Positions 25,688 to 56,961 of a DNA stretch of 64,000 nt are shown here, one piece after another (position 1 is the stretch's first letter; each line of letters begins with the position of its first letter). A program made the position numbers and the translations under genes. Below the pieces are notes generated by a model. That model saw only the letters and a program-made list of their open reading frames with translations. It was not told where the DNA came from and made no database searches. This DNA is from Candidatus Sumerlaeota bacterium (GTDB lineage: Bacteria; Sumerlaeota; Sumerlaeia; MWCT01; JAUWMI01): positions 62,001-126,000 of the forward strand of contig JAUWMI010000002.1 of NCBI GenBank assembly GCA_030613245.1, written 5' to 3'.

Positions 25688-26866
25688 ATGACGCTAAGGG
25701 TTCTACAGCTTTGCGCGGTTGACTTTACTGTCAAGCATTTCCTGCTGCCGCTGGTTGACTTTCTCGAAGGGCAAGGATTTGACGTCACGGTTGCCTGCTC
25801 TTCTGGGCCGTTTTTTCCGGAGCTGCGTGACCGGGGCGTAAAGCTCAAGGCAATCGAGATTTCGCGCAGCCGCCATCTCCTCCGCCATCTCAAGTCTACC
25901 TGTATGCTCTACAGCTATCTGCGTGGGCAGCACTTCGATATTATTCATGTTCATACCCCGATAGCCAGTCTAATTGGACGCCTTGCAGCCACCTGGGCTC
26001 GAGTGCCCATTCGCATATACACAGCGCATGGATTCTACTTTCACGACGACATGCCTCGCATGCAGCGGCGTTTTCATATTACTCTGGAGAAGTTCGGTGC
26101 GAGGTTTAGCGACTTTATCTTTACGCAGAGCGATGAGGATCGCCAGACCGCGATTCGTGAGAAAATCTGTCGCCCGGAACGAATTCTGACGATTGGCAAT
26201 GGGATCAACCTGGAACGCTTTGATCCAGCGAAAGTCACGGAAGCCGAGATAGCGCGCCTGCGCGAGGAGTTTGGTATTCCTGGGGGCACGAAGGTCATCG
26301 GAATGGTGGGACGCATGGTGCGTGAGAAGGGGTATTTTGAATTCTTTGAGGCCGCAGCAGTTGTGATCCGACAGATTCCGAATGTGCGTTTTCTTGTTAT
26401 TGGAGATGTGCTGAAAAGCGACTACGATAATTCAAAATTGGAACTCGAGCGCTGGATCCGTCAGCTGGGTGTGCGTGACAAGGTGCTTTTCACAGGAATG
26501 CGCGATGATGTTTCTCAGATTCTGAGCCTTGTGGACATCTACACGCTTGCGTCATATCGCGAAGGAATGCCACGGTCGATTTTAGAAGCAATGGCAATGG
26601 CACGTCCAGTGGTTGCCACGAATATTCGGGGCTGCCGGGAAGAAGTGGTGCACGAAGAAACCGGCCTGATTGTGCCGCCACGCGACAGCCAAGCACTTGC
26701 CCGAGCATTCATGGAGTTGCTCAATGACCCCGAACGTGCACAACGCTACGGTATAAAGGGACGCGAGCGAGTAGTGCAGTGTTTTTCCGAAAAGCAAGTC
26801 CTCGAGCGGCAGATGCAGGTCTATGAGCAGCTGATTAGAGAGAAAGGATTGATGGCGAAGCGATGA
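25688..26866 (+). CDS. Glycosyltransferase family 4
   Basis: 392 residues, a GT-B enzyme. The N-terminal Rossmann domain has VDFTVKHFLLPLVDFLEGQGFDV and HVHTPIASLIGRLAA; the C-terminal donor domain has IGMVGRMVREKG, VLFTGMRDDV, and SYREGMPRSILEAMAMARPVVA with the conserved EGxPxxxLEAM donor-binding motif, then GLIVPPRDSQALA. Such enzymes use nucleotide sugars to build lipopolysaccharide or exopolysaccharide. The stop overlaps the ATG of the next gene by four bases (ATGA), so the two are translated together. Confidence 0.92.
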   Translation: MTLRVLQLCAVDFTVKHFLLPLVDFLEGQGFDVTVACSSGPFFPELRDRGVKLKAIEISRSRHLLRHLKSTCMLYSYLRGQHFDIIHVHTPIASLIGRLAATWARVPIRIYTAHGFYFHDDMPRMQRRFHITLEKFGARFSDFIFTQSDEDRQTAIREKICRPERILTIGNGINLERFDPAKVTEAEIARLREEFGIPGGTKVIGMVGRMVREKGYFEFFEAAAVVIRQIPNVRFLVIGDVLKSDYDNSKLELERWIRQLGVRDKVLFTGMRDDVSQILSLVDIYTLASYREGMPRSILEAMAMARPVVATNIRGCREEVVHEETGLIVPPRDSQALARAFMELLNDPERAQRYGIKGRERVVQCFSEKQVLERQMQVYEQLIREKGLMAKR

Positions 26867-27717
26867 TTCTTGTAACCGGTGCAGCAAGTCCAACCGGATG
26901 CCGCCTGGTCCAGCGACTTGTGGACAAGGGCGAGAACGTGCGGTGTTTAGTCAGAACACCAGACCACGCGCGCTACATACCCAGCGGTGAGGTGGATATT
27001 TTTTATGGCGATCTGGATCGGGCTGCTGACATCCAGAGCGCGCTTACCAACGTCAGAATTATTGTGAACGTGGCGCACATACGCTTTGCTCCGGCACTGA
27101 TAGCAGTAGCCCGGCACATGAGTATTGAGCGCATCATATGTGTGTCATCCACGCGGAAGTATACACGCTTTCCAGACTTCACAGCACGCCTTGTGGATGA
27201 GAGTGAAGCGGCTGTTCGCTCAAGTGGGTTGGCGTGGACGATTCTGCGCTTAACCATGATCTTCGGCGATGAGCGCGATCGCAATATCAGCAAGCTCATT
27301 GACTATATTCGGGCTCATAAGATCGTCCCGTTGCCTGGTTCTGGCCGCAATCTGGTTCAGCCTATCTTTGTATGGGATGTAGTTGAAGCACTGGTCAGAA
27401 TCCTGGGTAATCCAGCGACGGCAGGCAAGGAGTATACACTCGCGGGGCCCGAGCCGCTTCACTATCGCACCATGGTACGCATAATCGCAGAGGCCCTTGG
27501 CCGGAGGGTGATTCTGGTTCCGATTCCCGTGCGTTTAGCGCTGGGGGTGGCGCGAGTGTGCGAGACATGCGGGTGTTCCTTGCCACTTAACGTTGAGCAG
27601 ATTCAGCGTATGGCAGAGGATCGCGGTTTCGACATCACCCCAGTGTGTAAGGAATTGGGATTTACGCCACGTCCTTTTGCCGACGGTCTTGCTCTGAAGT
27701 TGGATGGGAAAGTATAA
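26863..27717 (+). CDS. Atypical SDR, NAD(P)-binding (NmrA/NDUFA9-like)
   Basis: 284 residues. The nucleotide-binding motif is at the very start, ILVTGAASPTGCRLV, followed by VRCLVRTPDHA and VDIFYGDLDR. The usual Tyr-x3-Lys catalytic pair is not evident: the corresponding area reads STRKYTRFPDFTARLVDESE. This fits the atypical SDR group (NmrA, complex I NDUFA9-like proteins), which bind NAD(P) and may be sugar-nucleotide-modifying or regulatory. LVQPIFVWDVVEAL and YTLAGPEPLHYRTMV are typical of that group. Overlap with the GT4 gene suggests a joint role in glycan or lipid synthesis. Confidence 0.85.
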   Translation: MILVTGAASPTGCRLVQRLVDKGENVRCLVRTPDHARYIPSGEVDIFYGDLDRAADIQSALTNVRIIVNVAHIRFAPALIAVARHMSIERIICVSSTRKYTRFPDFTARLVDESEAAVRSSGLAWTILRLTMIFGDERDRNISKLIDYIRAHKIVPLPGSGRNLVQPIFVWDVVEALVRILGNPATAGKEYTLAGPEPLHYRTMVRIIAEALGRRVILVPIPVRLALGVARVCETCGCSLPLNVEQIQRMAEDRGFDITPVCKELGFTPRPFADGLALKLDGKV

Positions 27718-27762
27718 ACGTGAACAAATCTTGAGCGCCAAGGGTGAAGCGAATTCGCCGAG

Positions 27763-28965
27763 GTGGCTGATGTGCATATGATGAAGGTTTGTCCAACATG
27801 TGAAGTGTATAACCCAAAGGAGAACAACCGCTGCTTCAAGTGCGGGTCTATTCTTGAGAGCAGCGGCTCGTTTGACGTTCATCTCGAGCGGCTCTCGCGG
27901 AAGCGGCATAAGGGTATTCTATATCAGCTCCAGGGGTTTATCTATCGAGTAGGCCAGCGGCTTAGTCCGCTGTGCGAACGCAAGGAGTTGTCGTACCGCC
28001 ACCCGTGGCTGGCGGGATTCCTGGGATTGCTTCCCGGGCTGGGGCAGATTTACAATCGCCAATACGGCAAAGCAGGGATATTCTTTGGCGCGTTTGTTGG
28101 TCTCCTGGCACTGGGAATTCTGACCATCACGCAGCCTTATTCAAATGTGCTTACTGCGCTCTTCTTGCTTTTTCTGCTCTATTCGTATCAGGACGCCTTT
28201 GCTGTGGCTCTTATGATCAATGGCCAATTCTGGACCGTGCGCAAGTCATTAGCTTTCATTTCGTACCTGCTTTTTATCTGCGGTGTGGTCTTTACAGTGT
28301 CGCAGTTTGCCATCTTACCCATAGGTCGTTTGGTATTTATCTCCAGCGATACGTTTGCACCAACCCTGCTGAAAGGCGACCGGGTAGTGGTTAATTCGCT
28401 CAGCTACCTATTTCGCTCGCCACGGCATGGCGAGGTGGTTTATTATCGTCCGACCCACGGTTTCAGGGTGCTTTATAGTCCACCGGGAAAAGACGGAAAG
28501 CTGCCTGAACAGCGTGAGCCAATCGAGTATTTGATCAGGCCGGGAAACTCAGTAGAACGTGTTGTCGGACTGCCGGGTGATACCGTTGAGCAGAAAGCGG
28601 ATGTTCTCTATGTAAATGGTAAGCCGTTAGAACAAAAACACTATCCACTGGTGACGGATCAGATTCTCGAAGCCTTTGGCGACTTTCGGCTCGACGTGCC
28701 TGAGGATCATTATTGTATTATCATGTCTGCAGTTCCCCCTGAAGAGGCCCTGATCTACAAGGTTCTTACCCCACCGGCAATTCTGGAACACGGTCCGGAA
28801 CTTAGACGCGAGATCGAGGAGACGGGCCAAATGCAGATACCCATCAAGAGGAGTTTTATCAACAAGAATTGGACTGAGGCATGTATTGTTGATCGCAAAG
28901 ATATTATTGGATGCATCCTCCTTATCTATCACCCTCCCAAACACCGTACATTACTGACCCACTAG
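27763..28965 (+). CDS. Zinc-ribbon / TM2-like / degenerate signal peptidase I fusion
   Basis: 400 residues counted from GTG 27763 (in-frame alternatives GTG 27772, ATG 27778; GAGG at 27760 favours the second). An N-terminal zinc ribbon (CPTC at 10-13, CFKC at 24-27) is followed by a TM2-like segment (LLPGLGQIYNRQYGKAG, about 89-105), further membrane helices to about 190, and an S26 signal-peptidase-like domain. That domain keeps the fold motifs LLKGDRVVVNSLSYLFR and RVVGLPGDTVE, but the catalytic Ser position is Thr197 (SSDTFAPTL) and the catalytic Lys position is Glu265 (SVERVVG). The GDNR box near the end is replaced by MSAVPPEE. An active leader peptidase role is therefore unlikely; a substrate-binding or scaffolding role is inference. 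A normal lepB lies at 56437. Confidence 0.85.
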   Translation: MADVHMMKVCPTCEVYNPKENNRCFKCGSILESSGSFDVHLERLSRKRHKGILYQLQGFIYRVGQRLSPLCERKELSYRHPWLAGFLGLLPGLGQIYNRQYGKAGIFFGAFVGLLALGILTITQPYSNVLTALFLLFLLYSYQDAFAVALMINGQFWTVRKSLAFISYLLFICGVVFTVSQFAILPIGRLVFISSDTFAPTLLKGDRVVVNSLSYLFRSPRHGEVVYYRPTHGFRVLYSPPGKDGKLPEQREPIEYLIRPGNSVERVVGLPGDTVEQKADVLYVNGKPLEQKHYPLVTDQILEAFGDFRLDVPEDHYCIIMSAVPPEEALIYKVLTPPAILEHGPELRREIEETGQMQIPIKRSFINKNWTEACIVDRKDIIGCILLIYHPPKHRTLLTH

Positions 28966-50326: not shown

Positions 50327-52513
50327 TCACGAATACCGAACTTCGTAGACATCCACACTTGTTGTTTTCCCTTTAAGTTTCACCTTAGGGAGTTTGAAGA
50401 AAGATATGCCTTGCGATTCAAAAGCTGTGGATTGAGTTTTCACGGCCTGCTGAAAGGTTTGTTCACCAACAAGAATCTGGTCTTCTGCGGCAATTCCTTG
50501 CAGCCGCTCGGCGATATTGACGCTATCGCCAATGGCGGTGTATTCAAATCGTGTTGCAGCACCACCCACAGTCCCGACCATTACTTCGCCGCTGTTAATG
50601 CCGATGCCAGTCTTCAGGGTGACATTCAATTCGCGCATCAGAGTCAGGGCATTAAGCCGGTCTGTTGAGTGCTGAATTTCCACGGCAGCCTGAATCGCTC
50701 TCGCTTCGTCTGCGTCCCCGCTAATTGGTGCACCAAAGAGAGCCATCACAGCATCGCCCATGAACTTATTGATTTGTCCTCCGTGCTTCAGAATAATGCC
50801 TGACACCGTATCGTAATAGGCATTGAGGACCTGAACGATTTGGTCGGCGCTCAGTCGCTCCGACAAGCCGGTGAACTGACGAATATCAACGAAGAGTATG
50901 GTGACGCGCTTCTTTGTGCCCCAGATGGCTTCGCTGTCTGGTTGCTTGAGAATCTCCTCCCCAATTTCTGGCGAAACGGTTTTCAAAAAGATATTTCGCA
51001 CTTTGCGCCGATCTTTCTCTTTGACCCCTATCGTATAAGTAATAATGAAGACGTAGCCAAGCAGCATAGCCATGAGCGGTCGGATAATTGGCAGTACCAC
51101 TGAGGTGCTAGTAAAGAACACAACGCAGAATATTGAGTAGCCAAGTGCGAAGGCCAGCAAGATTAGCGAGGCCTTTTTATAATCCATAAATAAAAAGAGC
51201 AAGCCAAGAACCAGAGCACAGCCCATGACGATTGATCTTGAGGCACCAGAGGGGAGTAAGACCACATAATCGTCGTGAAGAATATTATGCAAGACGTTGG
51301 CATGGATGCCAACCATGGGAAAACCCGGCTGCAGGGGTATCGGTTGGGTGTCAGTCCCTCCCACGTTGTTCTCGCCAATGATCACAATGCTATCAGCGAA
51401 AACTGAGGGTTTGATTTTCGTCGGGAACTGGTCGCGGTATTTCGCATAGTGGATGAGAGACTGGAGAGTATAGGAGCGCTCAATAAACGACTCGCTTTCG
51501 CGAAAATTAACGTAGATATTACCGCGAAGGTCAATAGGGATACGCTTCGTCCCTTTAGCATTTCGGGTCGGGTGGAATTCGATCGCATCGCCAAAGCGGA
51601 TGCTAAGATCCTGCAGCTCAACTCCGTAGTAGTCGCAGATATAGACGAGATCAATGTGCGGATAGAGCTTTCCCTGGTATTCATAAACCAGTGGGATGCG
51701 GCGAAGCACGTCTTCATCGCCCTTCTCCACGTTAATAAATCCCAGCCCCGCGGCATTAATCGCCAGGAATTCCGATGGCAATACCACATGTTTGGCCCTG
51801 TACGGATTGGCGTTCTTAGACTGAGGAAGGTCCATAGCATAATGGCGATTCAAGAAGGCCTCGGCAAGCAGGTCGAGTTGAAAAGGAATTCTGAATAGTT
51901 TTACATCAATTTCCTCAAGCTTTGCTTCGTCAGGGGGAGCCTCTGCTTCTGCGCGCACCTGCTCCAGCTTGGTTTTTTCCTCATTCAAGTGTTCAATGCA
52001 CTGTTTGATCTCGTCGCTCGATAACGTCCGCAGCTCCTGCTTGAATTGAGCAACATCATGGAACCCAATCTCATCGGCGAGCTCATCGAGTGGCAGGGGC
52101 TCGCTAAGAAATTTGTAGCTGAGATAAGTTGACAGCTCCTGAAATTTAAAGGCGATCAGGCTATCCTTCGGTCGCGGGTACTCAAAGAGAAGGTCGAAGA
52201 TTACCACCCGAACCTTCAACCGCTGCAGGGCTTGCAATACTAGCTGGTATGCTTCGCGTGTAAACAGGCGCTCGCCGAATAGTAAATGGTCAAGATTCGT
52301 AACACCCACAAGCAGGATTTTTGGATCAATGGGCTGAACCGGACGAAGCCGCATACGCACATCGTATGAAGCCCATTCCATACTTGTGAGAAACTCGTTC
52401 AGCCGATGATGGGGAAGGGGAATTATGGAAAGTAGGGCAGCGAAGAAGGCCAGCAGAAGCGTGAGTACTCGCGGTGTCAACTCACGAAGTCTCGGCGTGC
52501 CGGCTATAGCCAC
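50327..52513 (-). CDS. CHASE2-domain class III adenylate/guanylate cyclase
   Basis: 728 residues from GTG 52513, with AAAGGAGA eight bases upstream. An N-terminal membrane helix (about 15-35), a periplasmic CHASE2 sensor domain (about 40-390, with an inserted Glu-rich helical stretch near 160-200), three membrane helices (about 400-465), and a cyclase domain (about 495-690). The cyclase has both metal Asp residues (TILFVDIRQFTG and FMGDAVMALFGAP) and YTAIGDSVNIAERL with the Asp that favours adenine. It should make cyclic AMP in response to an envelope signal. It lies 14 bases after the FecR-type gene, forming an operon; pairing of FecR and CHASE2 cyclase genes is known in other bacteria. Confidence 0.93.
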   Translation of the reverse strand: MAIAGTPRLRELTPRVLTLLLAFFAALLSIIPLPHHRLNEFLTSMEWASYDVRMRLRPVQPIDPKILLVGVTNLDHLLFGERLFTREAYQLVLQALQRLKVRVVIFDLLFEYPRPKDSLIAFKFQELSTYLSYKFLSEPLPLDELADEIGFHDVAQFKQELRTLSSDEIKQCIEHLNEEKTKLEQVRAEAEAPPDEAKLEEIDVKLFRIPFQLDLLAEAFLNRHYAMDLPQSKNANPYRAKHVVLPSEFLAINAAGLGFINVEKGDEDVLRRIPLVYEYQGKLYPHIDLVYICDYYGVELQDLSIRFGDAIEFHPTRNAKGTKRIPIDLRGNIYVNFRESESFIERSYTLQSLIHYAKYRDQFPTKIKPSVFADSIVIIGENNVGGTDTQPIPLQPGFPMVGIHANVLHNILHDDYVVLLPSGASRSIVMGCALVLGLLFLFMDYKKASLILLAFALGYSIFCVVFFTSTSVVLPIIRPLMAMLLGYVFIITYTIGVKEKDRRKVRNIFLKTVSPEIGEEILKQPDSEAIWGTKKRVTILFVDIRQFTGLSERLSADQIVQVLNAYYDTVSGIILKHGGQINKFMGDAVMALFGAPISGDADEARAIQAAVEIQHSTDRLNALTLMRELNVTLKTGIGINSGEVMVGTVGGAATRFEYTAIGDSVNIAERLQGIAAEDQILVGEQTFQQAVKTQSTAFESQGISFFKLPKVKLKGKTTSVDVYEVRYS

Positions 52514-56205: not shown

Positions 56206-56436
56206 ACACACACCTTTTAAACGAATATCTTCATTTCTATAAGAACCTCAAACTTCTGTCAATACTCAATGCATGGCTGCGCCAAAGGTAAATGGCGTCG
56301 CGCATAATTTCCTTGATAAGACCCCCGAGATACACTATCGTTTTTTCTTAGTTGTAGCGCAATCCGAGAAAGACATCCAGGTTGCCACTGGCAGGTTTAT
56401 GTGCCTGGAGCGCATTCAAGTGAGGCTAGCGTAGCG

Positions 56437-56961
56437 ATGGGACAACGGAAAAAGGTGTCAAATCTCCGCCTTTGGATCGGGATCGGCATCTTAATCCCGC
56501 TTCTGTTGGTATTTGTCACTCTCAAGTCTAACCGCGTGAAGACGTATAGAATCACCTCCAATTCCATGTTCCCTACGCTGAGGGTAGGCGATTGCCTTTT
56601 TGTCAGTGGTAGCAAGCACTATCGTCCGCAGCGCAATGATATTGTGGCTTTTCAAAATCCGACAAGCAAAGGTGAGTATCTGGTCAAGCGTGTAGTGGCG
56701 ATCCCGAACGACCAGGTGGGCATTTGTAACAGACATCTCCAGGTTAACGGAACGATTTTGCAGGAGGGGGAAATCAACGGGCAGTTAATCGCATATAAAG
56801 ACTTCAGTACAGAAATAAAAAAGGACCATATTTTTGTACTCGGAGACAACCGAAATAACAGTTACGATAGTCTGGATTTTGGCCAGCTGGAGTATAGTAG
56901 CATTCTGGGTAAGGTAACGTACATATACTGGCCGCTGAAGCGTGTTGGTGCAGCAAGGTGA
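56437..56961 (+). CDS. lepB: Signal peptidase I
   Basis: 174 residues from ATG 56437 (the frame is open to 56401). One N-terminal membrane helix (about 13-30) then the S26 domain: RITSNSMFPTLRVGD with the catalytic Ser, YLVKRVVAIPND with the catalytic Lys, and FVLGDNRNNSYDSLDFG (box E). It cleaves signal peptides on the outer side of the inner membrane. The set of catalytic residues is complete, in contrast to the homologue at 27763-28965. A TPR gene follows 127 bases later. Confidence 0.94.
   Translation: MGQRKKVSNLRLWIGIGILIPLLLVFVTLKSNRVKTYRITSNSMFPTLRVGDCLFVSGSKHYRPQRNDIVAFQNPTSKGEYLVKRVVAIPNDQVGICNRHLQVNGTILQEGEINGQLIAYKDFSTEIKKDHIFVLGDNRNNSYDSLDFGQLEYSSILGKVTYIYWPLKRVGAAR

Follow-up and report, generated by a model that had tools for sequence, protein, structure and literature searches.

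A zinc-ribbon membrane protein with a degenerate signal peptidase fold in Candidatus Sumerlaeota and its linkage to DUF2997 and DUF1257 genes

The gene and its domain layout

Our analysis of the window, a stretch of 64,000 nucleotides from a Candidatus Sumerlaeota genome, identified a real open reading frame at positions 27763-28965 of the plus strand, as checked on the window sequence. The initial annotation had taken the GTG at 27763 as its start. The ATG at 27781 (or 27778) is the more likely start codon, because the pattern M(K/R)xC opens nearly all relatives and because a GAGGTGG, which overlaps that GTG, lies just upstream. Residues are therefore counted from the ATG at 27781, giving a protein of 394 amino acids; the GTG start would give 400. 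The features of the locus are as follows.

25688-26866, plus strand: glycosyltransferase group 1 gene, overlapping the epimerase-like gene by 4 bases; a neighbour only
26863-27717, plus strand: NAD-dependent epimerase-like gene, upstream on the same strand; a neighbour, not a conserved partner
27760-27766, plus strand: GAGGTGG, a putative ribosome binding site 5' of the ATG at 27778/27781 (sequence)
27781-28965, plus strand: whole gene, 394 amino acids, with zinc ribbon, DUF5683-like membrane module and degenerate S26 domain
27790-27843, plus strand: zinc ribbon with Cys4, Cys7, Cys18 and Cys21 (Pfam, alignments)
27967-28230, plus strand: DUF5683/TM2-like module with near-invariant GQxYNxQxxK (Pfam, alignment, hydropathy)
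28063-28122, plus strand: predicted transmembrane helix 1, residues 95-114 (AlphaFold model, hydropathy)
28141-28218, plus strand: predicted transmembrane helix 2, residues 121-146 (AlphaFold model, hydropathy)
28237-28314, plus strand: predicted transmembrane helix 3, residues 153-178, running into the S26 domain (AlphaFold model, hydropathy)
28321-28962, plus strand: S26 (signal peptidase I-like) domain, predicted to be extracytoplasmic (Pfam, NCBIfam, model, profile search)
28351-28353, plus strand: Thr191 at the position of the nucleophilic Ser (alignment)
28555-28557, plus strand: Glu259 at the position of the general-base Lys (alignment)
28726-28737, plus strand: SAVP in place of GDNR, box E (alignment)
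56401-56961, plus strand: intact S26 peptidase used for comparison, with Ser, Lys and GDNRNNS kept

The protein had been described as a signal peptidase I homologue without either catalytic residue, fused to a zinc ribbon and a TM2-like segment. The S26 assignment was borne out by Pfam (Peptidase_S26, E=5e-17, 62.8 bits, cut-off 22.9), by NCBIfam (sigpep_I_bact, 62.9 bits, cut-off 47) and by Foldseek, and both members of the dyad are indeed replaced, as is the GDNR box. The motifs LLKGDRVVVN and RVVGLPGDTVE, which were said to be kept, are both present. Since the NCBIfam score lies above its cut-off, automatic annotation would call the protein an active peptidase. Of the fusion, the four-cysteine ribbon (CxxC-x10-CxxC) stood, with matches to Pfam ribbon families below cut-off only and a weak resemblance to RanBP/NZF-type fingers in Pfam and Foldseek. 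The membrane part is better described as DUF5683-like (PF18935, 28.8 bits, above the gathering score of 26.7), and no match of the window protein to the Pfam TM2 family was found. An intact LepB had been placed at 56437, and the gene found there at 56401-56961 does encode the complete catalytic set. A second intact S26 gene of the genome, which is longer and located on contig C59, keeps Ser, Lys and GDN. At 50327-52513 the window also encodes a large membrane protein whose C-terminal region, by eye, is adenylate/guanylate cyclase-like.

The AlphaFold model computed from the family alignment (mean pLDDT 82) matches solved signal peptidases, which answers the question raised by the initial annotation whether the structure is that of an S26 protein. 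The top Foldseek matches against the PDB were SpsB (4e-6), the inactive SipA (6e-5) and LepB, and a profile search returned the same kinds of protein. Family-averaged hydropathy showed strong helices at about residues 95-114, 121-146 and 153-178 and a weak half-helix at 75-91. Together with the helices of the model these predictions fit a topology in which the zinc ribbon would lie inside the cytoplasm, followed by three membrane crossings and an S26 domain outside. Across the family alignments, boxes C and D are kept, box B is variable and box E is lost. The GD and GxPGD motifs, which had been regarded as binding-groove motifs, also serve the fold, and the role in holding substrates that had been proposed may or may not apply.

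Loss of the catalytic dyad as a family trait

The same genome encodes a paralogue on contig C57 that is 46% identical and from which the dyad is likewise gone. Family members were found in 26 of 40 Candidatus Sumerlaeota genomes, some of them as fragments at contig edges. The general-base Lys is missing in all 32 family members inspected and Ser is present in three, so that a homologue with both residues intact, which had been named as the refuting case, was sought and not found among the 32. In the alignment used for counting, Lys occurs in none of 29 family rows versus 24 of 25 comparison S26 proteins, and the nucleophilic Ser in three of the 29 rows only; this count leaves out two tandem copies, both of which were seen to be without Lys by reading the 26-row alignment A1. 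An out-of-sample member (G304) has no Lys and no dyad either. Tandem duplication of the pseudo-peptidase gene was observed at loci L121 and L122 (G018, G026).

The zinc ribbon is conserved as a clade-wide trait, with all four cysteines invariant in 26 of 26 rows of A1 and also in the 15-row alignment A5, and most positions of GQxYNxQxxK in the membrane module are invariant or nearly so in A1. The Thr/Glu pair of the window protein, for which conservation had likewise been considered, is not a conserved state: residues at the Ser position include T, V, Y, L and S, and one of E, Q, G, S or A stands where the Lys would be. A conserved alternative Thr/Glu site was thereby ruled out. It is highly unlikely that the protein is a peptidase or another enzyme with a re-invented active site. 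Such a reading could draw on the three members with Ser at the nucleophile position, but Lys returns in no member, both positions vary, and in A1 the S26 part has no invariant Ser, Thr, Cys, His, Lys or Glu as another candidate for catalysis. The only invariant residues there (26 rows) are D200, G217, G266, G280, P289, P307, P385 and R389; the GDN(R) box E is absent from the alignment, and a C-terminal PPxxRR is nearly invariant.

A quick tree computed for the S26 part places the family on one side of a branch with SH-aLRT 94 versus 25 other S26 proteins, several of the out-group rows having long branches; the tree would allow for the clade having arisen once. The dN/dS of the S26 part was about 0.14-0.17 in three close pairs, about equal to the rest of the protein, and by this measure the S26 part is under purifying selection. 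Judged from the alignments, the S26 domain is maintained and yet is no enzyme of the signal peptidase type, in agreement with the earlier proposal of a retained, non-proteolytic S26 family, here seen as a clade with a zinc ribbon. The automatic label 'signal peptidase I' is thus wrong for the family. A decaying pseudogene or a sequencing error is barely credible. The window copy is the second in its genome and has no small upstream neighbour, which could count in favour of decay, but its frame is intact, the same residues are lost family-wide in many Sumerlaeota genomes, dN/dS is low in relatives and the cysteines are conserved; for the family this reading is already refuted. Sequencing error or a lone mutation was ruled out by the same loss across 32 homologues.

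More weight may be given to the possibility, still a rather doubtful one, that the dead S26 domain is no more than a structural relic, kept as a spacer or lid, and that the zinc ribbon and membrane module do the work. Mean pairwise identity is higher in the zinc ribbon (0.44) and the membrane module (0.42) than in the S26 part (0.31). S26 similarity is weak in the out-group members (Pfam E from 1.9e-14 to 4.4e-4) and falls under Pfam detection in G311. Furthermore, in two Sumerlaeota genomes the full gene cluster described below has a zinc ribbon/membrane protein without an S26 domain (L195:6866-7534 in G027; L196:7366-8085 in G016) and a separate pseudo-peptidase gene, so that the cluster does not in every case require the S26 part. 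Against a relic stand the dN/dS of the S26 part, as low as elsewhere in the protein, and the nearly invariant PPxxRR.

Linkage to DUF2997, DUF1257, AAA+, TPR and PilT-type genes

The window gene is the second, less typical paralogue of its genome. No DUF2997-like frame was found in the window and no other partner lies close by. Glycosyltransferases precede other family copies too, but these belong to different families, and the polysaccharide neighbours of the window copy were for this reason set aside as partners. The C57 copy has a DUF2997 neighbour: immediately 5' on the same strand lies a small frame (about 72-84 amino acids) with a DUF2997 pattern. Such a frame is also found immediately 5' in all three f3 relatives and in the f6 relatives except G027. 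In total, a DUF2997-like gene lies directly upstream at ten Sumerlaeota loci and one gene off at an eleventh (f5); these frames are too diverged for Pfam and were assigned by pattern. At the f6 loci L126, L127, L129 and L131, in several genera, the pseudo-peptidase gene lies between secG-like and hsp20/lon-like genes.

Outside Sumerlaeota, the matching genes score as DUF2997 in Pfam (5e-14 in G311, 6e-13 in G300). All four full-length out-of-phylum relatives found via the protein itself (G167, G300, G311 and G304) adjoin DUF2997 or a DUF1257-DUF2997 fusion, the neighbour in G167 resembling DUF2997 weakly. The G304 member was found later and used in no profile; the gene before it encodes a DUF1257-DUF2997-like fusion. 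The fusion (L289:8664-9374) holds DUF1257-like and DUF2997-like parts in one protein, which suggests that both parts work together. The same scan also brought up three DUF5683-S26 proteins that have no zinc ribbon (G061, G303 and G335), none of them with a DUF2997 neighbour. In the phylum of G300 the gene was found in one of 35 genomes searched and is therefore patchy.

A larger cluster, in which AAA+, DUF1257, DUF2997, TPR and PilT-type ATPase genes occur together, was identified in G311, G300, G257 and G339 (with only the start of the AAA+ gene on the short contig of G339) and in part in G167. Because DUF2997 itself led to G257 and G339, these two give no independent evidence for DUF2997 adjacency. 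DUF1257 and DUF2997 are Pfam assignments, and we take the DUF1257 gene to be 'Ycf35-like' and the AAA+ gene to be 'Ycf46-type'. The cluster TPR protein has an N-terminal RFxxxE motif, the PilT-family ATPase matches TIGR01420 (1.9e-118 in G311), and a radical SAM gene is often found in the same cluster. By eye, the radical SAM frames L222:4179-5294 and L223:4114-5409 end in a DUF2997-like beta-hairpin sequence. A Foldseek search with a DUF1257 model gave no match below E=0.02 and so no functional hint. Anti-phage defence was considered and rejected, as PADLOC gave no match for the pseudo-peptidase, DUF1257, DUF2997 or TPR proteins; the cluster AAA+ protein resembles IetA through the general AAA domain only.

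Within Sumerlaeota the genes of the set are dispersed over separate loci; the genome of the window has DUF1257 and TPR on C26 (L198), AAA+ on C41, where it adjoins a peptide-deformylase-like gene, and the DUF2997-like gene with the pseudo-peptidase on C57. Among the 40 Sumerlaeota genomes, the co-occurrence test covered DUF1257, TPR and AAA+, the PilT-like gene being outside it. DUF1257 was present in 26 of 26 carriers of the family versus two of 14 non-carriers (Fisher 1.6e-8), TPR in 24 of 26 versus three of 14 (1e-5) and AAA+ in 24 of 26 versus four of 14 (6e-5), p-values that are inflated by shared ancestry, five of the 14 non-carriers coming from one family.

The initial annotation had proposed that the protein regulates the intact LepB. 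This did not find support, since no examined member is linked to lepB and the linkage is instead to DUF2997, DUF1257, AAA+, TPR and PilT-type ATPase genes. More generally, it is unlikely that the protein acts as a decoy or regulator, influencing processing by binding signal peptides or LepB. The genome encodes two active S26 proteins with the same fold, and in f6 the gene is near secG and hsp20/lon genes, both of which would suit such a role. However, about one third of Sumerlaeota genomes are without the family, several of those show intact S26 genes, and the recurrent partners are unrelated to secretion signals.

Likeness to known systems and a possible role

With type I signal peptidases (S26A; LepB, SpsB, SipS) the window protein shares the S26 fold, the box C/D motifs and a membrane anchor ahead of the domain. 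It differs in lacking Ser, Lys and GDNR and in adding a zinc ribbon and three predicted helices, and the gene neighbours of the family are not the same. The DUF5683-like proteins with an intact S26 domain in G061 and G303 (L172, L173) likewise have the membrane module ahead of the S26 domain, but keep Ser, Lys and GDN and have neither a zinc ribbon nor a DUF2997 neighbour. A further S26 protein with a DUF5683-like module, in G335 (L180:4939-5781), has Val in place of Ser and Gln in place of Lys, keeps GDNR and has no zinc ribbon.

To our knowledge, non-catalytic signal peptidases are so far known as isolated cases only, namely SipA and SpsA. SipA of Streptococcus pyogenes is a non-catalytic S26 homologue that is essential for pilus polymerisation; its dyad residues are Asp and Gly, it has no peptidase activity, and its ligand was not found in that study (PMC4049620). 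It shares the S26 fold and the replaced dyad with the window protein and is the next distinct protein below SpsB in the Foldseek ranking. It differs in being encoded in a sortase pilus operon and in having no zinc ribbon or DUF5683-like module, and no sortase was found among the annotated neighbours of family members. SpsA of Staphylococcus aureus is an inactive signal peptidase paralogue in which two conserved catalytic residues are missing (PMC12445088). It is likewise an S26 paralogue alongside an active one, but differs in being dispensable. We know of no zinc ribbon fusion in SpsA. New in the present case is a whole dyad-less clade across one phylum, with relatives outside it, that is linked to DUF1257/DUF2997.

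The explanation we favour, with some reserve, is that of a non-catalytic membrane adaptor with a signal peptidase fold that belongs to the DUF2997/DUF1257/AAA+/TPR/PilT gene system. Rather than being an enzyme, the pseudo-peptidase probably has a structural or binding function in an undescribed machine of the cell envelope. As an envelope-spanning adaptor of the system, it might dock the small cytoplasmic DUF2997/DUF1257 proteins through its zinc ribbon, and these might work with the AAA+ ATPase. The dead S26 domain outside the membrane would then bind a peptide or protein segment without cutting it, by analogy with the part proposed for the inactive SipA in pilus assembly. In view of the PilT-type ATPase, a function akin to that of pili or secretion systems is attractive but unproven. 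Among the points against the adaptor are the window copy with neither DUF2997 nor another partner close by, the S26-less cluster protein of G027 and G016, and the failure of SipA itself to bind peptides in vitro (PMC4049620).

Cyanobacteria have a gene set of Ycf35 (DUF1257), DUF2997 and ferredoxin (PMC4284462). DUF1257 lies beside DUF2997 as in the clusters described here, but ferredoxin replaces TPR, PilT and the pseudo-peptidase. DUF1257 and DUF2997 were rare in the open-access literature searched, and the cited study gives gene order, not function. A bolder version of the adaptor, which we put forward only tentatively, is that the dead signal peptidase might act as the receptor in the membrane for an undescribed envelope machine found in several phyla and made up of a Ycf46-type AAA+ protein, Ycf35-like DUF1257, DUF2997, TPR, a PilT-type motor and often radical SAM, of which the cyanobacterial Ycf35/DUF2997 pair could be a photosynthetic offshoot. 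The gene linkage provides DUF1257 and DUF2997, which are related to ycf35 of plastids and cyanobacteria and to its neighbour, with a candidate membrane partner and a complex that can be tested. In other bacteria (L214 and L215, from G274 and G136), a cysteine-rich protein that appears RING-like by eye precedes the DUF2997 (and DUF1257) genes.
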